The translations under genes and the position numbers were made by a program. This document shows positions 2,483-26,462 of a stretch of DNA of 64,000 bases, one piece after another. The stretch spans positions 1 through 64,000 of the forward strand of contig JAERSV010000023.1 of assembly GCA_016845345.1 (NCBI GenBank), written 5' to 3'. The stretch's first letter is position 1; every line of letters begins with the position of its first letter. This DNA is from Methanobacteriota archaeon (lineage in GTDB: Archaea; Thermoplasmatota; Poseidoniia; Poseidoniales; Thalassarchaeaceae). The notes below the pieces were generated by a model. That model had not been told where the DNA came from, did no database searches, and was given only the letters and a program-made list of their open reading frames with translations.

Positions 2483-3169
2483 ATGATGTCGTCAGAGTAT
2501 TTACCCTGGGAGAATCTCGTAATCGCACCTTTAATGGTGCTATGGCTCTTCCTTCCTGGCTATCTCTCAAACACTACGGCAATGCTAGGTGGAAAGTGGA
2601 TACCATCAATGACTGGAATCCCAATTAAACCAATTGATGGTGGCAAAAATCATTCTGATGGCAACCGCATTTTAGGCGATGGTAAAACTTGGAATGGGCT
2701 CATAGGTGGTACTATTGGCGGCGGATTAATCGCTATGCTAACACATTCACTTTCTGCTGGGAATCATATTTCTAGCGCACCTTTCCTTGACCCTCTTGGC
2801 ACCTATGGTGTTGGTTCAGCGAGTATTGAAACTGCATGGTTTTGGATAGGTGGTGAATGGGGTGCGGCATTCGTTCTTGGATGCACTCTTGGATTTGGAT
2901 GCATGGTTGGTGATTCAGTAGGTTCGTTTTTCAAACGCCGCCGTGGATTGAAGAGAGAAGGCGAAGTGAGTAGCAAAGCCCCACTCCTTGACACCCTCCC
3001 ATTTGCTATTTTCACATTTTTGTTTGGTCTCATTTTCTTAGGCCCATCAATCGTTGGTCACAGTGGTTTGTTGATGGGGATGGTTATCCTTCTCATCCTA
3101 ACTCCCATTATTCATCGCTCATTCAATGTTTTGGGCTACAAACTTGGATTGAAATCAGTACCATATTGA
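2483..3169 (+). CDS. carS: CDP-archaeol synthase (CDP-2,3-bis-O-geranylgeranyl-sn-glycerol synthase, CarS/DUF46 family)
   Basis: Motifs LPGYLSNTTAMLGG...PIDGGKNHSDGNRILGDGKTWNGLIGGT...GDSVGSFFKRRRGLKR...PLLDTLPF match the CarS family pattern; multi-TM. Confidence 0.88.
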   Translation: MMSSEYLPWENLVIAPLMVLWLFLPGYLSNTTAMLGGKWIPSMTGIPIKPIDGGKNHSDGNRILGDGKTWNGLIGGTIGGGLIAMLTHSLSAGNHISSAPFLDPLGTYGVGSASIETAWFWIGGEWGAAFVLGCTLGFGCMVGDSVGSFFKRRRGLKREGEVSSKAPLLDTLPFAIFTFLFGLIFLGPSIVGHSGLLMGMVILLILTPIIHRSFNVLGYKLGLKSVPY

Positions 3170-3251
3170 TGTCAAACGGTTGTATTCTCTCGCCTTTCTC
3201 CAATGATAACTCGGTGGTATTGCTTATCGCCTCTCTTTGCTACCAATGTAA

Positions 3252-4523
3252 TTGATGGCAGAGGCGACTGTGTTGGTTGTTGGCGGCGGAGGGCGCGAGC
3301 ACGCCCTGACTATTGGGCTGGTTGCATCACCCTCCGTAGGCGAAGTTCACGTTGCTCCAGGCAACGCTGGAACCTCTTTAGTTGCAACTAATCATCCGTT
3401 TTCAGCGGCTGATGTGGATGCAATAGTAGGATTGGCACTATCGTTAGACTGCGACCTCGTCGTAGTAGGGCCAGAAGGCCCCTTGGTAGACGGTCTTGCT
3501 GACAAATTAACTACTGCAGGAATCCCTTGTTTTGGCCCCCATGCTGAGGGCGCCAAACTCGAAGGCAGCAAATTGTACGCTAAACAAACAATGCAAAATC
3601 TGGGCATCCCAACCGCTGGCATACACAACATCAATTCCTCCTCACAAATTGACGCTGCCCTCAACGACTTTGCACCACCTTGGGTAGTCAAGCGAGATGT
3701 CCTTGCTGGTGGTAAAGGCGTAGTTGTTACATCAGACAGGCAAGAAGCGAAACAGGCATTATCGGGCGGATTAGAAGCGGACGGTTTTGTGCTGTTAGAG
3801 GAATTCCTTAGTGGTGAGGAAGCGAGTATGCTAATCATGCTCGATGAAAGTGGGTGGGTTGCTTTACCGGCAAGTCAGGACCACAAACGAGTAGGGGAGG
3901 GGGACACAGGCCCAAACACCGGGGGGATGGGTGCATATGCTCCGGCACCAGTAGTTACTAACGAAGTGCGAGAGAAGGTTTACTCAAGAATTGTCGAACC
4001 TATGCACAGTTGGCTCAAGTCTCAAGATTCTCTTTATCGAGGTTGCCTCTATGTCGGATTAATGATTGATGAGTTAGGTGACCCCTATGTTGTTGAGTAT
4101 AATGTGCGGTTTGGTGACCCCGAAACTCAGGTTACAGTGCCATTAATTTCCAGTGACCTTTACGAATTGCTGTTTTCTGTTGCTTCTGGAAATGTTGGTT
4201 CACACACGCCAGAATTTACTGACTCTTCTGCTTTGACAGTTGTATTAGCGGCCGAAGGATATCCTGATTCTCCGCGTAAAGGATTGCCAATTTCTATTGA
4301 AGTTGGGCTGATTGCAGACGGTGACGGCGGCGCGTTCATCCATCATGCTGGTACAAAGCATGGAAGTGATGGTGAATTGCTCTCAAGTGGCGGCCGGGTG
4401 CTTGCTTGTACAGGCATCGGCTCAAACTTGGATGAAGCCCGAAATCTTGCATATTCATTGATGGATGGCATCATTTTGGAAGGATCTCACTATCGCTCGG
4501 ACATCGGTTTTAGGGCGTTGTAG
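3252..4523 (+). CDS. purD: Phosphoribosylamine-glycine ligase
   Basis: VLVVGGGGREHALTIGL, VVVGPEGPLVDGLAD, GGKGVVVTSD, DHKRVGEGDTGPNTGGMGAYAP, EYNVRFGDPETQ are classic PurD motifs. Confidence 0.97.
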   Translation: MMAEATVLVVGGGGREHALTIGLVASPSVGEVHVAPGNAGTSLVATNHPFSAADVDAIVGLALSLDCDLVVVGPEGPLVDGLADKLTTAGIPCFGPHAEGAKLEGSKLYAKQTMQNLGIPTAGIHNINSSSQIDAALNDFAPPWVVKRDVLAGGKGVVVTSDRQEAKQALSGGLEADGFVLLEEFLSGEEASMLIMLDESGWVALPASQDHKRVGEGDTGPNTGGMGAYAPAPVVTNEVREKVYSRIVEPMHSWLKSQDSLYRGCLYVGLMIDELGDPYVVEYNVRFGDPETQVTVPLISSDLYELLFSVASGNVGSHTPEFTDSSALTVVLAAEGYPDSPRKGLPISIEVGLIADGDGGAFIHHAGTKHGSDGELLSSGGRVLACTGIGSNLDEARNLAYSLMDGIILEGSHYRSDIGFRAL

Positions 4524-4663
4524 AGAATAAAATTCCAAGTGTTGGACTACGGCTTTACCCCTTACGTGCGCGTAGGCGGGTGCGCGCTCGTTTGGCAACG
4601 GTTAAAAAAAGGGGTCAGGTGGCGGCCACGCTGACGGTCGTAAGACTGACAACAACCGAGGTA

Positions 4664-7600
4664 ATGGAAATGGAAAATGAAGGAAACGCATCTGTGCTAC
4701 GTAATGTAGCGTGGGGGCTTGCTAGAGCACCATTGGCAGCACTTATTCTGCTGTTAATGACGATGGCAATGTACCCACTGGGTGTGACCTATGATCAAGA
4801 GACAGCAATAATGACGCAAGTATTGCCGTTCGTGTTACTCACGATCGGTGCAATGTTCGGCAGTGTGCCAAGAATCGTCTTCTCAAACCTCGGAGTGAAG
4901 CCTGCACAAGTCACATTGCTAATTTACGCACCACTAGTACTCGCAGCAGCGATTCCACAGTTGGTAATAGGAAACACTCTACTTGGAGTCTTGTTCCTAA
5001 CTTTAGCACTTGGAGTCCACATGTTTGACAAAGTAGGTCGTAACGATGAAGCCAACTTGTTAATTTGGATCGTAATGGGATTCTACGCCGCACTTTCATT
5101 TGCGGCTGTTGCCGCCCCTTCATGGGATGGCACACAGTTCGTGAACGGTGCTTGGCTCCCTGAACTTACAGAGAACGCATGGGGTTCAATGGATGGGCAT
5201 CGGGAAGCAACGGCTTTCCTATTCTTTAACGGCTGGATGATTGCCATCCTAACTGGTGTGCTAGTCACACTAGGTATTCGTGGCAGATTTGCAAAGCCAA
5301 GCACAAAGGGTTGGTTTTCCAACCTTCCTGAGAAATTCAACGATAAAGCATACATTCCACTGTTTGCTGCATTTGGGGTTTGGCTCATAGCCCACCTAAT
5401 TTCAGAAGTGTCGTTCTTCTCAGTAACAGAAGTACAGAGAGTATCAGGAGATTCTCTTGGCGTATGGTGGCCACTATTTACTGGTATAATCTCATTACTA
5501 ACAGCATATTGTTTTGCAGAAAATATGCGAACTCGTGGCGGTTTAATAGGAATGAATTGGTTAATTTATTCGGTTGGCTCCTTCCACGAAAATGGAATCA
5601 TAATGGATGGTTCACAAGAATGGCACTCATATTTCTCAGGGAATAATGGTCTATTTGTTTGGTTCTTCATCTTCTTCTGGCTCAATGTGTTAGTCGTGAT
5701 GTTAAGTGTCAAAGGAAAATTAGGGGATAGTTCACCCAGGAGAACACCCGGTCTTGCCAAGCAATTTTGGTCAGAGCACTGGTACGGTATTACTGTAGGC
5801 GCTGCTCTATTCTTTGGTTTGTTAGTTCGTGTAGTATGGAATGTTATTCCTTTCATGAACTCTAGTGGGACCCATGAGTGGGACTTGACTGGTGGTTCTG
5901 ACCCATGGTACATGATGCGAACAGTAGAATACATCCTCGCTGAACATAACCATTTCATCATCGATATGGACCGTTCTTACCCACTAGGTGCAATCAACCC
6001 TCGTCCACCTCTGTTTTCATGGAGTCTGGCTGTTGGAGGAATGATGCTAGCGCCTTTGTTAGGCGTCCCAGCATCTGAGGCTGTTTGGTGGTCTGTCGCC
6101 GCTCTACCTGCAATTTATGGTGCACTCACTGTGCTACCAATTGCAGGAATCGGCAACCGTTTCTTTGGCCGTGCAACTGGTGCAGTTGCGGCTTGGTTGA
6201 TTGCTTTGATGCCCGGGCACGTTGGTCACAGTACCTTCGCTTTGGCTGACCACGACGCATTTGCAATCTTGTTCCTGTCATTAGGATTTTATTTCTGGTT
6301 GAAAGCAGTCAAGGCTGCTGGTGATGACAAGATGGTGGCGAATGCAAATTGGTCACCTGCATATTTGTTCAAAGGAATCAAAGCCACATTTGAAAAGCGA
6401 CAAGGAGCAATTGCTAATGCAATTCTTTCCGGTATTGCATTCTCAACTGTTGCATTAGGATGGAAAGGATTCGTCTACGGTCTTGGTATCGTGTTCTTGG
6501 CATTCTTCGCTCAGATTGTAATTAATCAATTCCGCGGACGTGACAGCATGGCATTGTATGTTTCTGCAATGACAATGATGTTGGTTACATTCCTAATTCC
6601 ACTGCCATTCTATGCACATATGCAATTGGGATTGGTTTTCGATGCTAGCGGTTTCCAACCTATGTTCTACATCGTAGGATTCACATTTGCCGCTGGATGG
6701 GTTTCAGTTTCATTCCGTGACAAACCATGGCTACTCGTATTAGTGAGCGGTGGTGCACTTGCAGGTGTAATCCTCGGCGCTCTCTGGTTGATTCAATTTA
6801 TTGGATTATACAATGGCTGGGATGTTCTATTCACTGGAGGGTACTATCTATCTAAGAACAAGATTTTCGATACGATTGCTGAAGCACAGGCTCCAAGCCG
6901 AGCAATGCTTTTCGCATCATTTGGTCCAATAGTAGCATTGGCAGCATTATTTGCTGGGTTCGTTGCACTTTGGCAAGGTCTGCGTCGCCGTGACAGTAGC
7001 AGATTGGTTCTAGCAATCTGGATATTAGTTGCCGGAGTAATGGCTTGGCGTGCTGGAAGATTCATCTTCAACGCAACTCCTCCAGTCGCAGTGATGGGTG
7101 CTTGGGCATTTGTCATCATGTGGCAGTGGGTTGGGGGAACCGATTTCGCTAAGGCTTGGAGAAGGCTTGGAATTGGTTCACCTAGAGCAAGATTCTCTTC
7201 AACAACTAAGACGGCTCGTAAATTCCCTGGAATAGTTCCTATTCTGATGATTTTCATGCTAGTAGGTGCGCAACATGCGGCGTATGGATTAGATTCAGGT
7301 ATTCCATCTGGTAACTCAAAGGCAAAGGATGTTGATTCAAATATTTACAATATAACTCCGAATATTCTGCGTGCAGAAGACCCAATCTTTGGTTGGTCTT
7401 TCTTAGACTCTACTCAGTACAATCCATCGAGTCATTGCCGTGGTAACACCAAGGAAACCAGTTGTTGGTACATGGGTGCTTTTGGACCCGGATTCAATGG
7501 CCAATATTGGAATGAAGGGTATCAGTGGCTAGAAGAACAAGATGCTGATGTGCCATTTGGACAAAGGCCAGCATTCGTTTCATGGTGGGATTATGGATTC

Positions 7601-10600
7601 CAAGCATTGGCTCAAGGAAAGCACCCAACAGTCGCTGATAACTTCCAATCGGGTATTCCTGCTGCTGGAAATATGTTGTTAGCACAAAGTGATCACGACT
7701 TACTTTCACTTTACACAATGACACTTGCAGAGGGCGATTTGAGATATAATGATGGTACATTCACACCAGCCTTCCAAAACGCTCTAGAGAATCACTTGAG
7801 TGAGAGTCAAATTGAAGAGTTCTTACTTCTAAACACTCTAGGTGGGGAGGATGGGGTTGACGATTTAACAGACCGTTCATTTTCAATCACAAAGAAAGCA
7901 GGCAGTATTTCCTTTGGTGAAGGTCATTTGCTGGATTATAACGGAATGCCAACATCTGCTACAATCTATCGTGTATATGATAGTGAGGAGCAAATTGGTG
8001 GGGATTTCAACAATGAACATGAGGCTATGATTCAGTTCAATCAATCAAAGGACCGTAACGATGAAGTTATTGATGAGTTCACTCATCAAGTAATTGGTAA
8101 TTATTGGTACACTAAGGATATTGTTGAGAGTTTTGATGATGTATCATCTTCAATTCACCGCCAAAATGCCCGCTTAGCATTAGGTAGGGTTTTCTTGACT
8201 TCTGTAATGGATATGCCTGAGTTAGTTGATTTGTATCACCAATTAACAAATGACATTACTTACACTGTTGCAGATTCAGAAGGTAATCCAGGAGATACCA
8301 TCACTAGAAATCACGACATCCGATATTTTGGCGTTGATAATCGTCTATACCCTTCGGGTGGCTCATATCAGAATAGTGGAGGTAATCCTACAGGTATTTT
8401 CTATGCTCCAACCACACTTGCAGGTCTCGATCCTGAGACATATATGAAAACGTGGTACGTCACACAAAGAGGAAGTTCAAACTTCGTTGTTGACATGACA
8501 CAAGCTGAATACGAGGAGCAGTACAAGAATGATATCATAATGAGTGAATCACAAGATGTTGATATTATTCAAGCAGTTGACTTACGAGTTGACCAAGAGC
8601 CTGAGTTCTTTGACACAATGGTCGCTCGCACGTACATTGGATATGGTAGCCCTCAATTGGGCCTCCCAGGAAAGGTTGCTCAACCGGGTCAGCACTTTGA
8701 CCTAAGAGGCAGTACAAACAGCAGTTTGCAATATGCTTTCCCCCTTCCAGGTGCGATGATGTCAAACTTTGTAATCGCAAATTGGTATGATGACGAAGCA
8801 ACAAATTCAACCCCTTGGTATGATGCAAATACTGGGGTAAAGATACTCAAGTACTACAGTGGTGCTACCGTAAGTGGTGAAGTCAAATTAGGTGACTTCG
8901 GTGTAGTCCCTAAGGCTCGCCTATTGATTGAGCGGGACGCTTACAGTGGTGAAGACATATTTGATGAGGACCCAAGAGAATATTGGATTCCAATCGGTTC
9001 TGTCGATGCTGACGAAAATGGGCGCTTTGAATTCCGCGTCCCAGCAGGTCACATCCGAGTAACAGCATTTTCTGGGTTTGCTGAAGATGCACAGGTTTTG
9101 AGAAATCAAGATCGTGATGCTATCGTCTCAGCACAAAACGATTTCCAAGAATGGCAAGGATGGTTTTCAGATATTTTAGGCCAAACCACTGAAGATGGTA
9201 GGTCAGTTAATCCAATCACTGGAATTTTAGCGAACGTCAGTGGTGGTAAGTTACTTGGAGAGATGGATTTCAATGTGACTGGAGCACAAGCAGATACCAA
9301 CGGTGGAGCAGTTATTTCTAAGTCACTGACCATTGAAGCATCTAGTGCAACAGGAATTGTTACTTGGGAAGGCCATTCATCCTTTGATGGCACTCCGTTG
9401 AGTTCCCATGAACTAATTTTCACAGATATTTGGACTGAGGAAGAATTAGAGCACATCTGGACTACTAATGGTTCCGTAGTATCTACCGATGAACACCCAC
9501 GCGTGTTCCGTGGCGAAGGTGAGGTGACCTTTACTGGAGCAGGTTTGGTAGTAACTGATGGCGAGGTATTAGTATCAGATTTCACTGGAAATTACACACG
9601 ACAGATTGCAAATAACCACTCATTCACAGGGGTTGGGACATTCTCAGGGGATGGCCAATTCGTAGGTGATATCACAAGTGGAGAGACAATCTCAACATGT
9701 GTTAATGAAACAATCCCCGAATCTTCGGAACTATGTTCCTTAGAGGGCTCCGACCCAGTTACATACTTGTTCTCAGGAACTTTCGATGGTACAGGAAAAG
9801 TGACTGCTAATGGTTCAGTTGATTACACTGCAGAATTATACCGTGAAACACTAGTTGGTAACGGCATTTTCTTCACCGATGGAGAAGATGAGAGTCTTGA
9901 TACATTCGGTACAATCAACGGCAGTGGCACATTCAGTGGTGCTGGAATTTTTAATGGCCCAATGGTTGAGCCGGGTTCATTCCACTTAGTTGACGCATTA
10001 CCCGGCTCCTACCGAGTTTATGTTGTACTTCCAAATGGAAATATCACGCGGTTGAGTACTCCGCTTGAAGTTGACACAACCGCAACCAGCGGTGTGGAAT
10101 TACGCCTTCCCGGTTCTTGGATTGATGGTGAACTAGCGTGGTTCGACGGAGAACCAATTGCAAACACTGAACTTTACTTAACTGAGGTAAGTATAGATGA
10201 AGAGGCAACCGAGCCTTGTACCGAAGTTTTGTTCGCACCTTGTATTATCTATACTGATGAGAATGGTTCATTCGGCTATGGGCCTATTCCTGACGGTTCA
10301 TACGAGATGGTCATGGATGCTGACGGAGATGGATTCTACGAATGTGTACCTTGGAGAACTCCTGCTACGGTCCAATTTTGTGACGGCCGTGCCGCAGTTG
10401 CTGCGACTATTGATCCGATGAACTTCACAATGGCAAGCACCGATGCTGCGGTTCCAATGCATTTTGACATGGAATTCACACTAATGAAGGACCTTGGTGG
10501 CGGTTCAGTTGAACCAATTACTGATGAAGTCATTAATTTCCATAGCGTGATTCTCACAGACGATGAATATGTCGAGGCAATTTATGATAATGAATCAGGC

Positions 10601-13600
10601 ACTTATCGTGTTGAATTGCCAGAGGGTGAATGGATAGCCAATACATCTTCAGAAGGCGATTTGATGCTGTGGGAAGAGTTTGAGGTGACTGAGGATATCA
10701 CAGGTGTCAATTGGATGTTAAGGAGAAGCATCAACGTTACGGGACAAATTCTTGTCGAAACTGGAAAAGCGGAATCACCTGAAGAAGGAGTCCCAAACAT
10801 TGAGGTGAAATTCCAATGGGGTGGTATTACAACTTCAGTCCAAACGAGTTATGGTGCTGATGCTGGTAATTTCTCAGTATTCTTGCCTGAGGGTGTCGAG
10901 GTAAACATGACCACGGTATCTATCGCAAATCAAATGTCAAATGGTACCAACTTTGTTGTTTCAGATGATGTTTCACCGATTATTCTTCGTGTAGAGCAAG
11001 GACTGTCTGTAGATGGAATGCTTTACTTGTTTGAGAACGAAACGTCATACTCACCACATGTTCCTGGATTCGTGGAAGTACAATTACACGCATATCAGGT
11101 AGACAGAGATGTACATTGGTACTTTGACATTGATCCTGAGACCGGACGGTTCTCACAGAGGTTGATGCAAGGTAATTGGACATTAGATGTTTCAGATGAT
11201 AGACTAAATGTTGATGAATTACAATTAGAAGTATCGGATTTGAACATTGAGCAAATTTCTGATGTAGAATTGATAGCAAATCCTGACAATATCACTGTTG
11301 ATATTTCTGCCTTCCTTGACCATTCATTTGATGGAAACAGTAGCAACGGAACTTTTGTCAGCGTTGACTTCGCATTTGTGCCGGTTTCTGGTGGCGGAGT
11401 TGGTACAAGATTGAACATCACAGCAGATGAGATGTCAGATGGGCACATAATTACTTCATTGCATCCAGGTGCCTACACTATTGCAATTGATGCCCAAAAC
11501 AAGATAAACGGTTCTGACTTTGAAACAGTGTTAATCGATGAAGAATTAATCCTTGAACTAGGATTAGATAATACCACAACAGAGTATGCAGAATTGATCC
11601 TTAAACCATCATGGAAGTTAGAAGCATATCTAATCAATCAATCAGGTGGTGTTCTAGACAACAAGACAGTAATTTTCAATTCTGTTGATTCGGACGACAC
11701 ATTCAATATAATGGCTGATGAAAATGGTACAATTTCAGATTATATCCCTGAGGGTGATTGGATTGTTGTTGTAGAGCGTACTTTGGTTGGGGACACATAT
11801 GAAGAATTCAGAGGCAAACTCACAGCGAATGAAACATCATCACGAATAGGATTGCTATGGCGTTCGTTAGAATCAGCCGAAGTAGCAATTCACCTATCTG
11901 AAGGCGATACTGGAGACCCGTTAACTGGGTTCTCGCTGGTTGCAACTAGTTCAGATGGTTATGGTGAGGTAGTTCTGCCGTATACCGATGACCAAGGAGA
12001 TATGGTGGGTTACTTATTCCCCGGAGACTGGGTAGTTTCACTAAACCGCTCTGAATCAATGGACAGGTGGGTGTTAGAAGACCAGCAACTAGCAACATTG
12101 TCTGCTGGTCAAAACATCTCAAACATTAACTTCTCAGTAGAACATTGGGTTACTCTTGGAGGCAACCTGTTCTGGGATTTGGATTCTGATGACGAGTACG
12201 ATTTCAACGAAGGCGTTGAAGGAGCAAATATCACTGTCTCTGGAGGCGGTCTTGATGCCCCTGTGAATTTGACAAGTTCTGCCTACGGAACGTGGCAATT
12301 ATTTGTGCCTTCACAGAATAATTACTCAATTGAAGCATCACAACTTGGTTTCAGTTCAGTATCAATTGTCGCTCAAGTATCAACTATATCAAACTCAACT
12401 GACCTTGAGTTATCAGCAGGTAATGTCACAATTTCTGGTATGGTAGATTATGTACAGATGGAAGTCTGGGATGATTTCTCAGATGATGTTGTTCTAACTC
12501 TAACACCTGCATCAGGAATTGAGAGAGATTCCCGAACACCTACTAAGGTGATGGCTGGTGATGGTTCTTGGGATGGTGACTGGGTTGCTGATGTTGAACC
12601 CGGTGATTGGGTTCTCTCAGCAACAGTTGTTGATGAGGGAATTGTCGGAATTACAGTAGTTGAGGCTGATGTACACGATGGTGCACAAGTCAACCTGACA
12701 ATGATTCAGGGAGGAACAATGTCACTCAGCACAAATTGGATTGACTTTGATGGTGAGAGCCACGATTTGAGTGAAACAAATGTTGCTGGTGCTGAAATAA
12801 TCGGAACGCCTGAAATTAAAGTGACCATCTTGGGTGCTATCAGTTGGAATGAAACTGTTGATTCAAACGGAGAGATAGAATTCTTATTGCCAGCAGGTGA
12901 TCTTTACCTTGAAGGCGTATTTGAAACAAATGAGCGAGATATGGCAATGGTTTACCGAGCGGGATTGACAAGTTCAATTTCCGCTCAACAAGAAGCCCCT
13001 TCAGCGACTTTCAATTACAATCGTATCCTTGAGCATTCAATTGATTTCAATGTCAGCTCAATTAGTGGTGCAGAGCAAACAGATGAGAGTAATGAGGAAG
13101 TTAATGCACTTTATGAAAATGAAACTGCTTACCAAGTGATAGAGTTCACAGTTAATTTGACTTACAATGGAAATGAAGCCTTTGATGAGTACACAGTCGG
13201 TACCGTCTTTGACGCAGAAGATGGCGAGCACTGGAGTATTGAGTTCTTCAATGGTACAGATGAGAACGGCACAGAACTTTGGGCAGAGACTACGCCAATC
13301 ACACTAGGTTTGGATGGTGGAGACACCACAACAATACGAATGCGTGTCACTACTGCTGATGTTGAGGATGCACAATCAATTTCTGGTGGCCATGTAATCA
13401 AACTTCGAACAACTCACTCCACTGGTACCTTCAGTGAATATGTCATAAAAGTTCACATCCCTCAAACCTATTCGATTGAGATTGTCACAACACCGGGAGA
13501 CACTATCGGAGTATTCCCTGGGGAAGAGAAGCGTGTTGAGTTTGTAATTCAGAATACAGGAAATGGTCAAGATGTGCTTGGTTTTGATATTGACAAAACT

Positions 13601-14251
13601 TGGTTGCCAGAGGGTTGGAGTGCTACAGGACCTAGCGAATCACCTTGGGCACATGGAGAGGAGAGAACATATTCCTTCACCATCTTTGCACCTGCTGACG
13701 CTGATACTACACCATTCACACTTACTTTGAACATCAATAGTTCTGATGGCACTGCTTATGACCCGATTGAATTGGAAGTTAAGGCTGCAAAGCCAGTTCT
13801 GAACTTCGTGATGGAGAATACAGGCACATTCAATGGCGAAGATGCAGTTTCTGGTAAGAGCAATAAAATGATTGTTGTAGTAGAAAATTCTGGTATTGTT
13901 GGCGCAAAGACAATCCGAGTTAACATCACAATTGAAGGATATGAAGATATTTACATTCTTTCAGAATCACAGGATATTCCTATTGGAAGCACTGCTGAAT
14001 ACATCCTTTTCATTGATCTAGATGGTGTCGGCATCGGAAACCAAAATTTCGTGTTTACTCTTCAGAGTGAGTTCGGACTTGATTTAGATGCAGAATCTGA
14101 TGAAAGTATTACTAGAGCGTTGAAGGTTGCTACACCACCTCCAGAATCAGTAAATGTTTGGGTGCCTTTGATAATCATAGCTGCATTCATTCTTGGATTT
14201 ATTGGATTCCGTAGAATCCGTGATTCGATAAGCGGTCAGATGCCATTCTGA
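4664..14251 (+). CDS. aglB: Oligosaccharyltransferase AglB/STT3 with extra N-terminal multi-TM domain and very long C-terminal extracellular domain array (CpD-reg/Ig-like, NEW3-like) plus C-terminal TM
   Basis: STT3 signatures: HEWDLTGGSDPWYMMRTVEY (DPWY...R), WWDYGF (SWWDYGFQALAQGKHPTVADN), many TM helices. C-terminal beta-rich repeats and TM VWVPLIIIAAFILGFIGFRRIRD. ORF opens at 4580; ATG 4664 (MEMENEG...) is the likely start. Confidence 0.9.
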   Translation: MEMENEGNASVLRNVAWGLARAPLAALILLLMTMAMYPLGVTYDQETAIMTQVLPFVLLTIGAMFGSVPRIVFSNLGVKPAQVTLLIYAPLVLAAAIPQLVIGNTLLGVLFLTLALGVHMFDKVGRNDEANLLIWIVMGFYAALSFAAVAAPSWDGTQFVNGAWLPELTENAWGSMDGHREATAFLFFNGWMIAILTGVLVTLGIRGRFAKPSTKGWFSNLPEKFNDKAYIPLFAAFGVWLIAHLISEVSFFSVTEVQRVSGDSLGVWWPLFTGIISLLTAYCFAENMRTRGGLIGMNWLIYSVGSFHENGIIMDGSQEWHSYFSGNNGLFVWFFIFFWLNVLVVMLSVKGKLGDSSPRRTPGLAKQFWSEHWYGITVGAALFFGLLVRVVWNVIPFMNSSGTHEWDLTGGSDPWYMMRTVEYILAEHNHFIIDMDRSYPLGAINPRPPLFSWSLAVGGMMLAPLLGVPASEAVWWSVAALPAIYGALTVLPIAGIGNRFFGRATGAVAAWLIALMPGHVGHSTFALADHDAFAILFLSLGFYFWLKAVKAAGDDKMVANANWSPAYLFKGIKATFEKRQGAIANAILSGIAFSTVALGWKGFVYGLGIVFLAFFAQIVINQFRGRDSMALYVSAMTMMLVTFLIPLPFYAHMQLGLVFDASGFQPMFYIVGFTFAAGWVSVSFRDKPWLLVLVSGGALAGVILGALWLIQFIGLYNGWDVLFTGGYYLSKNKIFDTIAEAQAPSRAMLFASFGPIVALAALFAGFVALWQGLRRRDSSRLVLAIWILVAGVMAWRAGRFIFNATPPVAVMGAWAFVIMWQWVGGTDFAKAWRRLGIGSPRARFSSTTKTARKFPGIVPILMIFMLVGAQHAAYGLDSGIPSGNSKAKDVDSNIYNITPNILRAEDPIFGWSFLDSTQYNPSSHCRGNTKETSCWYMGAFGPGFNGQYWNEGYQWLEEQDADVPFGQRPAFVSWWDYGFQALAQGKHPTVADNFQSGIPAAGNMLLAQSDHDLLSLYTMTLAEGDLRYNDGTFTPAFQNALENHLSESQIEEFLLLNTLGGEDGVDDLTDRSFSITKKAGSISFGEGHLLDYNGMPTSATIYRVYDSEEQIGGDFNNEHEAMIQFNQSKDRNDEVIDEFTHQVIGNYWYTKDIVESFDDVSSSIHRQNARLALGRVFLTSVMDMPELVDLYHQLTNDITYTVADSEGNPGDTITRNHDIRYFGVDNRLYPSGGSYQNSGGNPTGIFYAPTTLAGLDPETYMKTWYVTQRGSSNFVVDMTQAEYEEQYKNDIIMSESQDVDIIQAVDLRVDQEPEFFDTMVARTYIGYGSPQLGLPGKVAQPGQHFDLRGSTNSSLQYAFPLPGAMMSNFVIANWYDDEATNSTPWYDANTGVKILKYYSGATVSGEVKLGDFGVVPKARLLIERDAYSGEDIFDEDPREYWIPIGSVDADENGRFEFRVPAGHIRVTAFSGFAEDAQVLRNQDRDAIVSAQNDFQEWQGWFSDILGQTTEDGRSVNPITGILANVSGGKLLGEMDFNVTGAQADTNGGAVISKSLTIEASSATGIVTWEGHSSFDGTPLSSHELIFTDIWTEEELEHIWTTNGSVVSTDEHPRVFRGEGEVTFTGAGLVVTDGEVLVSDFTGNYTRQIANNHSFTGVGTFSGDGQFVGDITSGETISTCVNETIPESSELCSLEGSDPVTYLFSGTFDGTGKVTANGSVDYTAELYRETLVGNGIFFTDGEDESLDTFGTINGSGTFSGAGIFNGPMVEPGSFHLVDALPGSYRVYVVLPNGNITRLSTPLEVDTTATSGVELRLPGSWIDGELAWFDGEPIANTELYLTEVSIDEEATEPCTEVLFAPCIIYTDENGSFGYGPIPDGSYEMVMDADGDGFYECVPWRTPATVQFCDGRAAVAATIDPMNFTMASTDAAVPMHFDMEFTLMKDLGGGSVEPITDEVINFHSVILTDDEYVEAIYDNESGTYRVELPEGEWIANTSSEGDLMLWEEFEVTEDITGVNWMLRRSINVTGQILVETGKAESPEEGVPNIEVKFQWGGITTSVQTSYGADAGNFSVFLPEGVEVNMTTVSIANQMSNGTNFVVSDDVSPIILRVEQGLSVDGMLYLFENETSYSPHVPGFVEVQLHAYQVDRDVHWYFDIDPETGRFSQRLMQGNWTLDVSDDRLNVDELQLEVSDLNIEQISDVELIANPDNITVDISAFLDHSFDGNSSNGTFVSVDFAFVPVSGGGVGTRLNITADEMSDGHIITSLHPGAYTIAIDAQNKINGSDFETVLIDEELILELGLDNTTTEYAELILKPSWKLEAYLINQSGGVLDNKTVIFNSVDSDDTFNIMADENGTISDYIPEGDWIVVVERTLVGDTYEEFRGKLTANETSSRIGLLWRSLESAEVAIHLSEGDTGDPLTGFSLVATSSDGYGEVVLPYTDDQGDMVGYLFPGDWVVSLNRSESMDRWVLEDQQLATLSAGQNISNINFSVEHWVTLGGNLFWDLDSDDEYDFNEGVEGANITVSGGGLDAPVNLTSSAYGTWQLFVPSQNNYSIEASQLGFSSVSIVAQVSTISNSTDLELSAGNVTISGMVDYVQMEVWDDFSDDVVLTLTPASGIERDSRTPTKVMAGDGSWDGDWVADVEPGDWVLSATVVDEGIVGITVVEADVHDGAQVNLTMIQGGTMSLSTNWIDFDGESHDLSETNVAGAEIIGTPEIKVTILGAISWNETVDSNGEIEFLLPAGDLYLEGVFETNERDMAMVYRAGLTSSISAQQEAPSATFNYNRILEHSIDFNVSSISGAEQTDESNEEVNALYENETAYQVIEFTVNLTYNGNEAFDEYTVGTVFDAEDGEHWSIEFFNGTDENGTELWAETTPITLGLDGGDTTTIRMRVTTADVEDAQSISGGHVIKLRTTHSTGTFSEYVIKVHIPQTYSIEIVTTPGDTIGVFPGEEKRVEFVIQNTGNGQDVLGFDIDKTWLPEGWSATGPSESPWAHGEERTYSFTIFAPADADTTPFTLTLNINSSDGTAYDPIELEVKAAKPVLNFVMENTGTFNGEDAVSGKSNKMIVVVENSGIVGAKTIRVNITIEGYEDIYILSESQDIPIGSTAEYILFIDLDGVGIGNQNFVFTLQSEFGLDLDAESDESITRALKVATPPPESVNVWVPLIIIAAFILGFIGFRRIRDSISGQMPF

Positions 14252-14352: not shown

Positions 14353-15606
14353 GTGATACCGGGCTTGGAGGGTGTGGAATTTTTGCCAGAACCCGAAGAC
14401 CCGCGGATGCTTTCCACAATTGACCCAGGAGCACCGGGGTATCCCGCAGAAGCATATGGAATGCCTACTGAGATGGACCCACAAGCATGGAAAGAGGCTG
14501 ATGCGGTAAAGCCTCGAAAACCACCTCTTAACCTCCCATGGGGATTATGGATGTTGGTTGCATTGATTGTTGGATTGATGATAAGTTATAGTTCAATAGT
14601 AGGGTATCTTGATGAGTTTATTCCTGAATCAGAGTGGGCTTATGAAAATTCAGGAATACGTGGGTTAAACGCCGAGGGTTACAGTGGAAAAGGAGTACGT
14701 GTCTGTATTGTTGATACGGGAATAGATACAACACACCCTGATTTAGTTGGAGTCAATCTTGTTGGTTTCAAAGATTTCATTCAAGGGACTGAAGGAAACC
14801 CTCATGACAATGATTTGACACAATCTCATGGGACAATGATGGCTGGTATTCTTGTTGCCAACGGTTCATTTGTTGGCGCCGCACCAAATGTACAACTGAT
14901 TGTTGCAGCAGCTCTTGGTGCAGATGGAGGCTCAGGCTCAGAGGTTGCAGTCGCTGATGCGATTGAATGGTGCTGGACTTCTATGGGAGCGGACATAATC
15001 AGTTTGAGTCTTGGCGGAAAACCCGATTTAGTCTCTACATTTGGTGGTAGAACAGAAAGTGCTGTCAGTGACGCACTTGACAATGGAATTTTCGTTGTTG
15101 CTGCTGCTGGAAATCATGGTGGTGCCGGCCAAGATTATCCAGATGTTACCGTGCCTGCTAATGTTGACGGAGTGATAGCAGTTGGTGCTGTTCACCGCAA
15201 TAATTCACTTTGGCAGTTTTCAAGTTCAGGTTCTCCAACCAATGCTTCGGGAGAAGCTAGAATTTGGCCAAATCAAAAACCAGAGGTCGTTGCACCGGGG
15301 GTTGAGATCCACTCAACTTTTGTTTCAGAGAGAACTGGGGCTACATGGTCAAGAAGTGATGGGACGAGTGATTCGACAGTGTTTGTCACAGCCGCTCTTG
15401 CATTGATACTCGAGAGATACAGTGGCAACCCAGGACTTAGCCCAACTCACCAAGGAGATCGCACACCCATACAATTAGTGAAGGCCGCACTTGCTAATTC
15501 GTCTGAACCCGGGGTTTTCCAAGAAACAGGGGAGCACCATTTGAGGTACGGTTATGGTTCGCTAAACGCGGAGAGTTGGTCAGACGCTGTTGGGGCAAGA
15601 CTCTGA
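14353..15606 (+). CDS. Membrane-anchored subtilisin-like serine protease (S8)
   Basis: Catalytic triad blocks: CIVDTGIDTTHPDLVGVN (Asp), SHGTMMAGILV (His), SDGTSDSTVFVTAALAL (Ser). N-terminal TM PWGLWMLVALIVGLMISY; GTG start. Confidence 0.9.
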   Translation: MIPGLEGVEFLPEPEDPRMLSTIDPGAPGYPAEAYGMPTEMDPQAWKEADAVKPRKPPLNLPWGLWMLVALIVGLMISYSSIVGYLDEFIPESEWAYENSGIRGLNAEGYSGKGVRVCIVDTGIDTTHPDLVGVNLVGFKDFIQGTEGNPHDNDLTQSHGTMMAGILVANGSFVGAAPNVQLIVAAALGADGGSGSEVAVADAIEWCWTSMGADIISLSLGGKPDLVSTFGGRTESAVSDALDNGIFVVAAAGNHGGAGQDYPDVTVPANVDGVIAVGAVHRNNSLWQFSSSGSPTNASGEARIWPNQKPEVVAPGVEIHSTFVSERTGATWSRSDGTSDSTVFVTAALALILERYSGNPGLSPTHQGDRTPIQLVKAALANSSEPGVFQETGEHHLRYGYGSLNAESWSDAVGARL

Positions 15607-15791: not shown

Positions 15792-18700
15792 ATGGAAATG
15801 AATAACCGAACCACAAGTCTTCTGCTAGTCTCTTTGTTTGTGATTAGTACGATGACTGCATTAGTCACTTTGACACCCACTGTAGTAGCAAGTAATGAAA
15901 CTACAAGTGGTACGATTACAGGAACTGAAATTTGGCAGGGTGGACACACTCTGACGGGCGATGTTGAGATTGCGCCGGGTGCGAAATTGATTATTCAGCC
16001 AGGCACAACAGTAACATTTCCTAATGGTACTTACTTGGATGTAAAAGGTAATTTGTGTGCTGCAGATACTTCATGTGGTGCTAATGGAATGGGTAGTAAT
16101 TCGAGCAAAGTTACCTTGCGATGGGCAACACCTGCTAACGAATCAGCAACTGGTCGTTGTTACAGAATGATGAATCCTGCAAGCGGATTACCATTGTGGA
16201 ATGCGGATCCTTCGTGCTTTGAAGGCGTTTTAGTACGCGATACAATCGATATTGCTGAAACAAGGTTCAATCATGTAGCAGTTGAGAATGCTTACGGTAT
16301 GCCCAGATATGTGGCTGATTTAGGAGAAATTCGCTGGGCTGCATTTATTCTAGATGGGGCAAGTCCAACCCTTACAGAAATGAGTTTTAGCAGTATTAAC
16401 ACTTCAAGTGTTCTTGTACTAGATTTAGCATCACCAACATTCAATGGAGGGTCTTTTGAAGTTGGTTCAGATGAAGTAATCGCTAGTTTAGCAGGAAATG
16501 CAGTACAAACCTATGGTGCAGGAAGCCCGAGTGGCCCTGTTCGTTTCCTTAGCCCTATTTTTACAGGTACTGAGAATGGTTGTACTTCTCAAGACAATGG
16601 ACGTCACGTTCTTTGGGCGCAAAAATCGTTCACTAATATTGACCACGGAGTCGTGGCAAGTGGAGACTATGGGTACAGGTATACCGATTCAGCAGGTGTG
16701 ATATACGGGAACACAGTAGACACAGATTGCACGGGGATTGATATTAACGGCCGCAGAACAATCTCAAACACAGATTACAGAGTTGATGTAACTAGTAACT
16801 CGATTACAACTGGTGACAACTCTCCATTAACTGTTTATGATGCTGCATATGCTCATGTTGAAGGCAATGTGATGAGCGGTGCTGATGAGGGTTCAGGAAT
16901 CCAAGTGGTTTCATCCTCAGGTGCAGCAGGTGTAGTCACTCAGGTCAGGATTACCAATAACGTGATTGGCCCAATCGCTGGGTATAACGGTGTTTGGGGT
17001 GTAGGTTACTTTGACATGGAAATTGACAATAATACCTTCCAAGAAATTAATCGCGAACCAATAATTGTTGGTGAATACCATTACCAAGATTCTGGTTGGT
17101 CGGTCACTGGTCCAGCCCCAGCAAGGGCTACAATCAATGATAACGTCTTCAGCAACGTTTCAGGCACATGTTCCTCCGATACTGTTTGGGATGAAGATGA
17201 TTTTAATTGCCCAGCATTCCATGTTTTCAGGGCTAGCGCAACCATCAAGAGAAATGTTGTGACAGGAGTTGCGGGGGATGCTATACGAGCAATCGGAGCA
17301 ATACTTGATGTGCAGGACAACCAATTTACTGTTGGCGGAGAAGGTGCGAAAATTGTTGACCATGACCACTCATTCGCTTCACTTGCGTTCTTCTCTGGGA
17401 ATCAATGGCTTGGCGTTTCTGACATTGTGTACAACATTACCAAGAGTTCTGTGACTGTACAGTCTGAGGCAATTCCTTCCTTAACTGGTCCAAATGCAAG
17501 TATGCCCATTCAGTTAGTGTGGGACCGAGGAGAGGCTTTTGAGTACAATAATTGGGATAATCAAGTGCTTCTTCCACCTACTACATCAATTCCTCCCGTA
17601 GATTTCCCCTTGTCATTGCAAGCGGTGAATAATTCAACAGTGTTCACATTCGCAAACATGTCTGGTCTATCTCTTTCCAAGATAGAAATTGGTGCATCAC
17701 CAAGTGTATGGTCGGTACAAGTTCGCGAGGCGGCTTTAGTTCGAATTAGAGCAACTGTTGGTGGCGTGAGAGTACCAGGCGCAACAATTCTGATAGAAGA
17801 TGCTCATGGTAATGATCTTTACAATATGCAAACAGATACTCAAGGATTTGCTCCTTGGGTTGCATTGCCATCAGATTTCCATCTTGATATAAGAGGAAAT
17901 GGAAATAATCCGGATGGATTTGCTGATGATGTTGGTGAAGATTCTTGTTCTGATGGAATCGATAATGATGGAGATTTATTGTATGATTTGGATGACCCTG
18001 ATTGCAATGCTGGTGCAGGAACTAGGGAATTGTCAAAATACTTCGTGACAGCGTACAAATTTGGTAAAGGATACCATAAGTCGTCATTTAACCTCACTGG
18101 GACTTATGAGGATACTCTTGCAATGACCAATCTCAAGCCAACAGTCGTTGTGACTCAAAGTGATGGTCACTCATTCATCCGCAACATCAATTTCACAGGC
18201 TATGCTTGGGATGGAAATATTGGTACTGGAGTTTTCGGAACTGCTGAGCAGGCTCAGTGGGAACAGCAAGGTGCAGTCCAGAGAATTGAAGTCAAAACTC
18301 CGGATTCAAGTTCATGGGTTGATGTTCGATATGCAGTTGATGACAGCGGAACCAATGGTGAAGTTACCAGAAATAATCGGCCTTTCAAGAACTGGCATTT
18401 TGAGTATGACATGGCTGACCAACCTGAAGGGGATTACACCTTTGATTTCAGAGCTTATGATGGGGTCGATTACAGCCCAATCGTGACAAAAACGATCAAA
18501 TTAAACACAAATCCACCGACAATCAATGTTGCATCTCCAGTAAATGGTTCGATGCATAATTCTGGAAAAGTTGTATTCTCCGGAACAGCAAGTGACGCTT
18601 ACAACGGGGCACTTGGTAGTGATATCCAAGAGATACATTTCCGTATGTCAAGCCCTACTTGGGTGACTACAACAACTAGCATCGCCCGCCCTCTTGACGC

Positions 18701-20156
18701 ACAAGGAAACCCAATTGGTGCTCTTTCAGAGTGGTCGTGGGAATGGGACTTTTCGGTTATGCCGAGAATTAGCGAAACATGGACTTTCGTGATATGGGCC
18801 TCTGATTCAGGTTTCTGTTTAGAAGACATTGACACGTGTGATACGGTAACACTAGAACTTGATATTGACAATAGTAATGCTGCACCAGTAATTTCTTTGC
18901 TTGCACCATATGAAGATGAAACCATTTCAGCAAGTCATGACACAGTTATATCTGGCATTGCAAGAGATACTGATGGGGAAGTCAGTCGGGTTGAGATTCG
19001 CATTAGAGACCCTCAGGATGCGCTTCGTGAATTACCAAATGCTCCACCTTACGTTACGACGATACAATCTAATGGTTTGTGGAGTACAACTTGGGATACT
19101 AGCAACATGATTCATGATTTCCATTATCTAATCAGCGCACGTTCGTTTGATGGGCATTCGTATAGTGAGTGGGTTGAGGTTGAAGTGATTATTCACAACC
19201 CATCAGATGCTAACAATCGTGCCCCAGTATTCGACTCTACAGGTTGGGAAGGAGAAGTAATCATTTTCTGTGAAGAGGGTAGTCAAGCCCTTGACAGGTG
19301 TGGGAATGGTGGAAGTGTGGTACTTCCTCCATTTTTCTCTGACGCTGATGGTGATTTACTCGACTACGATGTCTTTGATGACCCAGAAATTATTGCAAAT
19401 AGTGATCTGCAACATGATGAATTGTGTGCTGATTTAATTTCCATTGATATTTATGGTAAGGTAACATACGACCCAGTCGGAATGTCCTTCCATACGACTG
19501 ATATCGATTTGTGGTCATGTGAAGGAATGAAATTTATGGCCAGAGATGGTTCATCAAATGCTTACACAATGAATGTTGATTTCATCGTCCGAGCAGTTTC
19601 ATTTAGTGTTGAACGAATTGATGGAATCAGTGAAATCAATGCTGGTGATACTGCTATCTTCACAGGACAAGGCCGTCCAGGTGTTGAAGTGGTCGCCCGC
19701 TCATCAAATACAGGTCTTCGCCTTAACAATACCATTGTTAGCGATAATGGAACTTGGATGATGACTGTACAAAGCAATAAGTTAGAGTCTGGAGTGAACA
19801 ACGTAGCATTCGAATATGGTGGTGATTCAACTGGACAGGCCCTTTCAGTACAAGTTGGCGCTACTACGCAGGAGAGTGCATTAGGTTGGGTTCTTTGGGC
19901 GATTCTCGCCCTTGTTGTATTAGCAGGACTTGGCGGAGTTTTCATGTTCTTCTTTGTGGAGTTTGAAGATGAGCCGGAAATTGGCGATATCGAGGCACAA
20001 GAGACAGCAGAAGAGGACCCCTATGCTTGGGGTAAGGCGAATCAAGCAGATGCACAAGCCCAAGTGGCTGCACCTGCCCAACCAGTTGCTGAACCACAGC
20101 CCACTTACCCAGGTTGGAAGTGGGATCCAGAGACTAACCAGTGGATTCCAGAATAA
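15792..20156 (+). CDS. Giant secreted surface protein: parallel beta-helix N-terminus, CxDGIDNDGDxxxDxxDPDC motif, Ig-like repeats, C-terminal TM and cytoplasmic tail
   Basis: 1454-aa ORF with signal peptide. GTEIWQGGHTLTGDVEIAPGAKLIIQPGTTVTF is typical of beta-helix starts. CSDGIDNDGDLLYDLDDPDC at about 17945-18004. TM LGWVLWAILALVVLAGLGGVFMFFFV; tail YPGWKWDPETNQWIPE. Confidence 0.85.
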   Translation: MEMNNRTTSLLLVSLFVISTMTALVTLTPTVVASNETTSGTITGTEIWQGGHTLTGDVEIAPGAKLIIQPGTTVTFPNGTYLDVKGNLCAADTSCGANGMGSNSSKVTLRWATPANESATGRCYRMMNPASGLPLWNADPSCFEGVLVRDTIDIAETRFNHVAVENAYGMPRYVADLGEIRWAAFILDGASPTLTEMSFSSINTSSVLVLDLASPTFNGGSFEVGSDEVIASLAGNAVQTYGAGSPSGPVRFLSPIFTGTENGCTSQDNGRHVLWAQKSFTNIDHGVVASGDYGYRYTDSAGVIYGNTVDTDCTGIDINGRRTISNTDYRVDVTSNSITTGDNSPLTVYDAAYAHVEGNVMSGADEGSGIQVVSSSGAAGVVTQVRITNNVIGPIAGYNGVWGVGYFDMEIDNNTFQEINREPIIVGEYHYQDSGWSVTGPAPARATINDNVFSNVSGTCSSDTVWDEDDFNCPAFHVFRASATIKRNVVTGVAGDAIRAIGAILDVQDNQFTVGGEGAKIVDHDHSFASLAFFSGNQWLGVSDIVYNITKSSVTVQSEAIPSLTGPNASMPIQLVWDRGEAFEYNNWDNQVLLPPTTSIPPVDFPLSLQAVNNSTVFTFANMSGLSLSKIEIGASPSVWSVQVREAALVRIRATVGGVRVPGATILIEDAHGNDLYNMQTDTQGFAPWVALPSDFHLDIRGNGNNPDGFADDVGEDSCSDGIDNDGDLLYDLDDPDCNAGAGTRELSKYFVTAYKFGKGYHKSSFNLTGTYEDTLAMTNLKPTVVVTQSDGHSFIRNINFTGYAWDGNIGTGVFGTAEQAQWEQQGAVQRIEVKTPDSSSWVDVRYAVDDSGTNGEVTRNNRPFKNWHFEYDMADQPEGDYTFDFRAYDGVDYSPIVTKTIKLNTNPPTINVASPVNGSMHNSGKVVFSGTASDAYNGALGSDIQEIHFRMSSPTWVTTTTSIARPLDAQGNPIGALSEWSWEWDFSVMPRISETWTFVIWASDSGFCLEDIDTCDTVTLELDIDNSNAAPVISLLAPYEDETISASHDTVISGIARDTDGEVSRVEIRIRDPQDALRELPNAPPYVTTIQSNGLWSTTWDTSNMIHDFHYLISARSFDGHSYSEWVEVEVIIHNPSDANNRAPVFDSTGWEGEVIIFCEEGSQALDRCGNGGSVVLPPFFSDADGDLLDYDVFDDPEIIANSDLQHDELCADLISIDIYGKVTYDPVGMSFHTTDIDLWSCEGMKFMARDGSSNAYTMNVDFIVRAVSFSVERIDGISEINAGDTAIFTGQGRPGVEVVARSSNTGLRLNNTIVSDNGTWMMTVQSNKLESGVNNVAFEYGGDSTGQALSVQVGATTQESALGWVLWAILALVVLAGLGGVFMFFFVEFEDEPEIGDIEAQETAEEDPYAWGKANQADAQAQVAAPAQPVAEPQPTYPGWKWDPETNQWIPE

Positions 20157-22756: not shown

Positions 22757-23233
22757 TTAGAATCCAGGTTGATTACTAGTGATAGTTACATTGTTTTCTT
22801 CAAGCAACACCCATATTCTTTCTAAACCTGCTAATTCCACTTCTCCGCTATGGTTGGTAGCACTAGCCGAAGAAATATCTCTGCTAAATATGAGGGTTTC
22901 ACCTTTATCTTGCATTAATAATCCATTATCGTCTAAGACTAATCGTAATTCGAGGTTCACTGCTTTTGATAACAGTAGGTCAACAGGTTCGGCATAAGTC
23001 ACATTGCCGTCTTGCCGGCTTGCAAGGTCTGCTCGTTCTACTGCTTCTGCAATGGAATCTAAATTTTCCTCCATTGCCTGCTCTAACCACACATCACCTC
23101 TTTCATCCTGAAGTTCCCAAGTCCAAATACTGAACACCGATAGGAATGATAGTCCAAGCAAGAAAGTTAACACATAGCCTAACTCAGTGGCTGCTGCAAC
23201 AGTGTCGCGCATGAATTCTGAATTGCGCCTCAA
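22757..23233 (-). CDS. Small pilin-like membrane protein (third gene of pilin-like operon)
   Basis: 158 aa; single N-terminal hydrophobic helix (TVAAATELGYVLTFLLGLSFLSVFSIWTW). TTG start overlaps upstream TGA (TTGA). Confidence 0.6.
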   Translation of the reverse strand: MRRNSEFMRDTVAAATELGYVLTFLLGLSFLSVFSIWTWELQDERGDVWLEQAMEENLDSIAEAVERADLASRQDGNVTYAEPVDLLLSKAVNLELRLVLDDNGLLMQDKGETLIFSRDISSASATNHSGEVELAGLERIWVLLEENNVTITSNQPGF

Positions 23234-25443: not shown

Positions 25444-26462
25444 TAGTAAACCTCTACTGATTGCAATGTTACAACGAATTGAAACGGAACGTCTCCGGGT
25501 AAAACGGTGATTCCGTCAAGGCCGGAAAGACGTTCATGTGGCCCAAATCCTTGGTATTCGTTAATTGACCCACCGGCTAGGTAAAGTGCATAATCCCCAG
25601 TCCAGTGATGAATATATTGTGGGGATATAGAAGGGTCGCCGGCAATTTCAACCTCGACGATTAGATTACGCGCCTCACTGTCAAATAATTCCTGTTCTCC
25701 CTTCGAATCAAGGTGGACATTTGTCATGTGTCGGCTTGCAGAAGCACTAATGTCAAGGTCGAGAAGAATTAGAGAGACTCTTGGGGTTCCATCGAGTAAA
25801 AGATCTGTTTTGAAACGAGGGAATTGTTTGACTGCAACTGGATGATTTGGCAATTTTTCAATTCTGGCTCCATTGACCAAATCAACTGAAAATTCCCCAT
25901 CAGTCAATACATTGTTGAGACGGATTCCATCAATCGTGATTTCTAGGAAACGATGTGATATTGTCCCGTGGATATCCTCTACCTCAATGACAACATTGCC
26001 CACTAAGCCCGAAACGGTGAATTCGTTTGTGCTATTTGTCATGGTAAATGTCTGTGTGGAATTTGAATCGGTGACTCTGACAATCGATGCTGTGCGATTG
26101 AGGCTAGAGACCGTGAGTAAGTCACCATCCAAAGTGACTACAGTTCGGTCACTTCCGCCGAGGTCGGCTTGAATTTTCCAAATTTCAGCATCTTGTAATG
26201 GGTCCATTGACCTAGAAAGTTGGGCATTCTGTTGCACTAATCCACTACCCTCTGGGCTCTGGGCGGCAATCAAAATTCGGTCATTCAACTGAGTGGCTGC
26301 CACGGTACCAGATGACCATTCTCGATTATCGCTGATATCTTCTAGAAATGGGGTAAGTAGAACAAACACGCTTCCAATCACAGTGACAACCATGGCTAAC
26401 AGCATAGTAACTCCGAGGATTTCGCTAACCGCATCCTCGTTATGGCTCCCGCTCCGCCGCAC
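25443..26462 (-). CDS. Archaeal type IV pilin-like protein
   Basis: N-terminus SHNEDAVSEILGVTMLLAMVVTVIGSVFVLLTPF matches the archaeal pilin/archaellin N-terminal pattern (xAVSxxIGVxLMxAxxV). Confidence 0.75.
   Translation of the reverse strand: MRRSGSHNEDAVSEILGVTMLLAMVVTVIGSVFVLLTPFLEDISDNREWSSGTVAATQLNDRILIAAQSPEGSGLVQQNAQLSRSMDPLQDAEIWKIQADLGGSDRTVVTLDGDLLTVSSLNRTASIVRVTDSNSTQTFTMTNSTNEFTVSGLVGNVVIEVEDIHGTISHRFLEITIDGIRLNNVLTDGEFSVDLVNGARIEKLPNHPVAVKQFPRFKTDLLLDGTPRVSLILLDLDISASASRHMTNVHLDSKGEQELFDSEARNLIVEVEIAGDPSISPQYIHHWTGDYALYLAGGSINEYQGFGPHERLSGLDGITVLPGDVPFQFVVTLQSVEVY

Follow-up and report, generated by a model that had tools for sequence, protein, structure and literature searches.

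The window analysed here (the whole stretch of 64,000 nucleotides, on contig C23) comes from the genome of a Poseidoniales archaeon (Marine Group II; 2.08 Mb, 86% complete). It holds a giant aglB/STT3 gene between purD and a gene for a membrane-anchored subtilase (Table 1). This order, purD-aglB-subtilase, recurs across the testable loci, with the upstream gene kept in 56 of 58 and the downstream gene, recognised by S8-type motifs, in 49 of 53. Four loci (L156, L161, L169, and L184) are without the subtilase, and the aglB frame is >3,000 aa in all four. The window also encodes giant surface-type proteins at 15792-20156 (1454 aa), 27979-33711 (1910 aa), and 33889-39516 (1875 aa); the second has calcium-binding repeats of the DxDxDGxPD type (TSP3-like), and its 38 sequons compare with 16 expected. 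Three consecutive genes on the reverse strand (22757-26462; 158, 737, and 339 aa) have N-termini that resemble archaeal pilin/archaellin leaders, and none of the three has a Pfam match. Outside the window, a 3,487-aa open frame at G000:C37 (about 5979-8663) contains the strongest CarboxypepD_reg domain of the genome.

Table 1 Features of the aglB locus, with positions in the window.
Feature	Residues	Position (strand)	Basis or conservation
purD, upstream neighbour		3252..4523 (+)	Pfam GARS domains
Giant aglB/STT3 gene		4664..14251 (+)	Single unbroken ORF
N-terminal module, 10 TM helices	1-360	4664..5743 (+; start perhaps 4670)	AlphaFold2
STT3 catalytic membrane domain, 13 TM	370-875	5771..7288 (+)	Pfam, NCBIfam, PDB, Foldseek
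GGSDPWY, first catalytic Asp motif	410-416	5891..5911 (+)	Invariant in Poseidoniales
ADHDAF, DxD/DHD motif	528-533	6245..6262 (+)	D529, H530, D531 invariant
TIAEA, EL5 TIXE motif, catalytic Glu	737-741	6872..6886 (+)	E740, A741 invariant
Ordinary AglB C-terminal globular domain	876-1466	7289..9061 (+)	Foldseek 3wai/7e9s, probability 1.00
WWDYG signature	974-978	7583..7597 (+)	Invariant in all aligned sequences
First added beta-sandwich/helical region	1467-1609	9062..9490 (+)	AlphaFold2 strands, helices
Glycine-rich GxGxF long-strand module	1610-1770	9491..9973 (+)	AlphaFold2, self-repeat, invariant columns
About ten CarboxypepD_reg/transthyretin-like Ig domains (~95-100 aa each)	1780-2750	10001..12913 (+)	Pfam, profile self-repeats
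NEW3/CARDB/choice-anchor-T-like domains	2870-3160	13271..14143 (+)	Pfam in orthologues, NCBIfam
C-terminal TM helix	3163-3181	14150..14206 (+)	Hydropathy
Short basic cytoplasmic tail ending PF	3182-3195	14207..14248 (+)	
Membrane-anchored subtilase (peptidase S8), downstream neighbour		14353..15606 (+)	Pfam E = 4e-42

The aglB frame is open from a GTG at 4580 to 14251, and translation from the ATG at 4664 yields 3,195 aa. Orthologues start with the methionine whose codon lies at 4670, M3 of the alignment and invariant there, which makes 4670 slightly more likely than 4664 as the start; the resulting length of 3,193–3,195 residues agrees with the ORF of about 3,200 aa in the original prediction. 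No DNA tandem repeats were found. Between 8,800 and 9,300, where a chimeric join had been suspected, there is no stop codon and GC content (0.39–0.48) does not jump. One STT3 gene was found in the Poseidoniales genome under study, and the count is also one per genome among its relatives. Using PF02516, we searched 59 relatives, 296 genomes of the phylum, and 97 genomes of the class; nearly all Poseidoniales frames measure 3.1–3.3 kaa if the gene lies complete on its contig. Another collection supplied 80 named loci with 59 intact Poseidoniales genes, 56 of which share a frame of 3,124–3,321 aa, including those from four single-cell genomes (L130, L148, L167, and L168). A 364-kb contig, for which the isolate name suggests PacBio reads (L185), likewise carries a full-length gene. 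The three shorter frames are those of L144 (1264 aa), L132 (2749 aa), and L139 (1810 aa), the last of which stops near a contig edge; in a single-contig genome (L092), a run of N splits the frame into two halves, both of which are present. Apart from this break and the three shorter orthologues, nothing favours an assembly chimera or an annotation artefact, which we rule out because independent Poseidoniales genomes, single-cell genomes among them, carry the same full-length frame in conserved synteny and with no break in composition. A Poseidoniales-type aglB with 54% identity across the whole core is also present in a sequence titled 'Deltaproteobacteria bacterium AH-558-G13' (L155; JAOMAZ010000025.1); mislabelling or contamination of this single-cell genome is probable.

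According to searches of Pfam, NCBIfam, and PDB, the catalytic part occupies about residues 370–1011. Pfam STT3 (PF02516) covers residues 412–773 (E = 1.7e-15; 57.9 bits vs. a cut-off of 24.5), a weak AglB_core match lies at residues 971–1011, a PDB search returned AfAglB (3waj; E = 3.6e-23), and the fold of the core was matched to 3wak by Foldseek (E = 6.8e-10). The archaeosortase-associated archaeo_STT3 profile (TIGR04154) scored 190 bits, under its subfamily cut-off of 450 bits, and membership of that subfamily was therefore rejected. The GxDP, DHD/DxD, TIXE, and WWDYG motifs are fully or almost fully invariant across Poseidoniales and MGIII; as for the DK/MI motif (Ser/Thr pocket), inspection of the conserved columns by eye showed no canonical DxxK. 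AlphaFold2 and Foldseek recovered both the 13-TM GT-C fold and the AglB C-terminal globular domain. Domain searches, motifs, PDB matches, and fold thus fully support the proposed AglB/STT3 identity and, because motifs and fold are intact, the catalytic step is likely to proceed as in known AglB.

In the AlphaFold2 model of residues 1–880 (pLDDT 76.5, pTM 0.78), ten helices precede the 13-TM core, so the N-terminal multi-TM region that had been noticed earlier is real. This module is single copy in its own genome, is specific to Poseidoniales as judged by its absence from 43 non-Poseidoniales Thermoplasmatota genomes (MGIII included), and is poorly conserved, with ~25% identity between genera. 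Its conserved Arg/Glu residues include R126, E128, R206, and E286. It has no Pfam, PDB-sequence, or PDB fold match, and its assignment to a known membrane family was rejected for this reason. A lipid-linked oligosaccharide flippase (Wzx/MATE-like) was rejected on the same grounds, and the genome encodes a Wzx-like protein separately. The 2,611-aa AglB of L107 (family f12) has an N-terminal extension of its own (residues 1–260, ~7–8 TM helices), and hhalign detected no relationship between this extension and the Poseidoniales module (probability 0.2%). N-terminal additions to Thermoplasmatota AglB may have arisen more than once.

Residues 1467–3160 form an extension of ~1,700 residues beyond the ordinary AglB domain, the proximal part of which was modelled together with that domain (AlphaFold2, residues 870–2010; pLDDT 80.3). 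Strands of the GxGxF module reach 33 residues, the module is duplicated internally (1567–1668 matches 1659–1765), and its Cys pair, residues 1679 and 1691, is invariant. Pfam identified CarboxypepD_reg at residues 2515–2572 of the window protein and in 32 of the 33 orthologue tails searched, NEW3 (NPCBM_assoc) in 10/33, and CARDB in 5/33. Residues 2870–3160 match NCBIfam NF041740 under its cut-off, and similar stretches occur in other proteins of the same genome. Each of the 20 Poseidoniales orthologues checked has the C-terminal TM with a basic tail, and the helix recurs in almost every giant homologue. The array of CpD-reg/Ig-like, Gly-rich, and NEW3-like domains read from the sequence earlier is therefore borne out (Pfam, AlphaFold2, self-repeats), as are the terminal TM and the basic residues after it. 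The picture of a free stalk has to be given up: with 10 + 13 + 1 helices and a basic tail, both termini of AglB would be cytoplasmic, and the extension, predicted to lie outside the cell, would be a loop tethered to the membrane at both ends. Conservation of residues 1201–1800 (0.52–0.67) is almost that of the enzyme, and that of the distal array is lower (0.34–0.48).

To place the gene in its phylum, we compared AglB sizes across Thermoplasmatota, taking lengths beyond the phylum from the literature (PMC3703281) and PDB entries. AglB spans 2,300–2,375 residues in the sister group MGIII and 1.86–2.75 kaa in most other Thermoplasmatota, among them single-contig genomes of 99% completeness; the longest form among the Thermoplasmatota sampled is that of Poseidoniales. 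The Poseidoniales profile aligned to MGIII AglB over >2,000 columns (E about 1e-153) and near end-to-end to most other giants of the phylum, with collinear, homologous tails. Because MGIII and most other Thermoplasmatota also have an extended AglB, these comparisons indicate a phylum-wide trait that is not unique to the Poseidoniales window. The range of 600–1,100 aa that the original prediction considered typical of archaea fails in Thermoplasmatota, where 1.9–3.3 kaa is usual, and so does the rarity it implied: the giant form is usual in the phylum and the rule in Poseidoniales, and the window gene is therefore not an exceptional fusion. Short forms (1.1–1.4 kaa) exist in families f14, f32, and f30, and those checked have no C-terminal TM. 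In the STT3 tree, the short forms of f14 and f32 branch within the giant-bearing part; the deep forks are weak and the root is uncertain because of long branches. The extended AglB looks like an old trait in Thermoplasmatota, with a giant form likely but not proven to be ancestral in the phylum and with probable shortening in some lines. The open-access literature that we searched yielded no description of it; the known additions to AglB are the units IS, P1, and P2 only (PMC3703281).

Sequon counts were compared to composition-based expectations and to a reversed-sequon control, using 20 genome stretches in addition to the window. The extension contains 46 N-glycosylation sequons vs. 15.3 expected (3.0x; reversed control 19), concentrated in the Ig-domain region (residues 1801–2850: 33 sequons vs. 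9.3 expected), whereas the ordinary AglB C-terminal domain shows no excess (4 vs. 4.6 expected; 0.88x). The extensions of 67 orthologues together contain 2,779 sequons vs. 1,220 expected (2.3x; reversed 1,280). Part of the excess could come from NxS/T in the turns of beta-sandwiches, for which the reversed control does not correct. In the same genome, cytoplasmic-like proteins stand at 0.94x and other surface proteins at 1.61x. A number of sequon positions are conserved among the orthologues (for example, N1537 and N1752 each in 60/67, N2228 in 65/67). With one STT3 gene in the genome, any N-glycans on the extension must come from AglB itself. The suggestion that the enzyme glycosylates itself thereby gains indirect support from sequon excess and the lone STT3 gene, and the loop is likely to be heavily N-glycosylated by AglB, either in cis or between copies. 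The original interpretation is in this way partly supported; its further suggestions, that the stalk could anchor an S-layer-like coat or position the enzyme relative to secreted substrates, are possibilities.

We tentatively favour, at a little short of an even chance, the idea that the extension is a self-glycosylated scaffold acting in cis and NOMO-like in build. Tied to the membrane twice, it would form a loop that arches above the active site or alongside it; close to the translocon, such a loop could provide an integral scaffold on which surface proteins are held or spaced as they emerge, for glycosylation. A single chain would then do the work of accessory subunits in multisubunit systems, and N-glycans on the loop would protect the extension at the surface. 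This explanation appears the best of those considered because the proximal stretch is about as conserved as the enzyme and the distal array drifts at constant length. It is also in line with the full-length build in 56/59 genes, the collinear tails across the phylum, the invariant catalytic motifs, the sequon excess, the single STT3 gene, and the conserved C-terminal TM. At sea, an MGII oligosaccharyltransferase (OST) gene is transcribed, with enrichment at times of activity of genus O1 (PMC9723583). Catalysis does not depend on the loop, since forms of 1.1–1.4 kaa exist, and the fast evolution of the distal array counts against a scaffold, as a spacer or a surface coat would be expected to evolve in that way.

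A surface coat is the main rival to the scaffold, and it is possible, if rather unlikely, that the extension serves chiefly as a surface glycoprotein, with each enzyme molecule contributing its own glycosylated Ig-like loop to a glycocalyx in archaea that often have no S-layer. The sequon density of the extension, the highest of any AglB part, would fit such a role, as would its acidic tail (~16% D+E vs. 4% K+R in the window protein), the fast drift of the distal array, and the best Foldseek matches of the tail, which are to Ig-type pilins of Gram-positive bacteria. S-layers are missing in most described Thermoplasmatales (PMC5155288), and Thermoplasma acidophilum has an N-glycoprotein in its plasma membrane (PMC2952790); surface layers have been observed on some acid-mine plasmas (PMC3750248), and the S-layer status of Poseidoniales was not found in the literature searched. 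However, enzymes are usually low copy, and the genome has further giant surface proteins, 1.4–3.5 kaa in size. A broader proposal joins both roles and treats the Thermoplasmatota OST as enzyme, scaffold, and substrate at once, self-glycosylating and with its loop as part of the coat; in Poseidoniales, with the 10-helix partner also fused, one chain would replace a multisubunit OST/translocon assembly. We consider this unlikely as a whole.

That the extension consists of ordinary surface Ig domains without a specific role, inherited through a neutral fusion, is doubtful. The genome has many such domains, short AglB forms exist, and the distal array diverges fast (26–34% identity to most orthologues), but length is near-constant in Poseidoniales, the extension is retained across most of the phylum, and the Cys pair, several sequons, and the C-terminal TM are conserved. 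Very unlikely, in our judgement, is a polyprotein from which the neighbouring subtilase cuts the enzyme off the array, so that a surface protein anchored at its C-terminus would remain. The conserved position of the subtilase gene downstream of aglB would suit such processing, and alignments of profiles with AglB from some other Thermoplasmatota break off cleanly after residue 1466. Yet the fusion is kept with different neighbours in MGIII and other Thermoplasmatota loci inspected, the four Poseidoniales loci without a subtilase still have the full gene, and no split-gene lineage was seen among the lineages inspected.

The archaeal OST is commonly presented as compact and made of one subunit, a simple equivalent of the complex of many subunits found in eukaryotes. 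An AglB that is two to four times larger across a phylum, with its own Ig-type array, would represent another route to OST complexity, in which accessory domains are added in cis. For Poseidoniales, uncultured archaea that abound in surface waters of the ocean, a self-glycosylated loop on the sole OST, if true, bears on the make-up of the cell surface. Cultured Thermoplasmatales with homologues of roughly 1.9–2.1 kaa make the idea testable.

Compared to AglB-Long of Archaeoglobus fulgidus (868 aa; 3waj/3wai), the window protein has the STT3 fold, the GxDP, DHD, TIAE, and WWDYG motifs, and the C-terminal domain in common, whereas the A. fulgidus enzyme is without the 10-TM module, the 1,700-residue array, and the C-terminal TM. 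Other Thermoplasmatota AglB (MGIII ~2.3 kaa; others 1.86–2.75 kaa) share the collinear, homologous extension and the C-terminal TM, but their array is shorter than in Poseidoniales and the 10-TM module is absent (43 non-Poseidoniales genomes). The multisubunit OST of eukaryotes, Asgard, and TACK (OST1, OST3/6, and OST48 with STT3) likewise has large extracytoplasmic domains around STT3; there, these domains reside on chains of their own, which belong to other families. The OST1, OST48, and OST3/6 families are absent among the Pfam matches shown for the AglB tail, and an identity with any of these was rejected; a search for the ribophorin (OST1) gene had no match in the same genome, nor in any control genome.

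Gram-positive sortase pilins (BcpA, SpaA/Cna-B domains) are also strings of Ig-like beta-sandwiches but, unlike the giant AglB, have no enzyme and no membrane loop, and belong to a covalent polymer biology. Closer in build is eukaryotic NOMO of the BOS complex (multipass translocon), which comprises 12 Ig-like domains, one TM, and a short tail, loops, and forms a rod of ~27 nm (PMC12262048), and which has been suggested to tether translocon parts (PMC11169918). The AglB extension has the same plan of a CarboxypepD_reg/Ig-like string, a single C-terminal TM, and a short cytosolic tail, and a PDB profile search returned NOMO2, a weak match (E = 0.0015) to the generic CarboxypepD_reg class. NOMO-specific Pfam domains were not found in residues 870–2010, and just NOMO_5th appeared in 1/33 orthologues (E = 0.011). 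Because the NOMO-specific profiles fail, we describe a likeness to NOMO and not a membership: NOMO is a separate protein, the AglB extension is fused to the OST, and homology between them lies at the level of the domain class.
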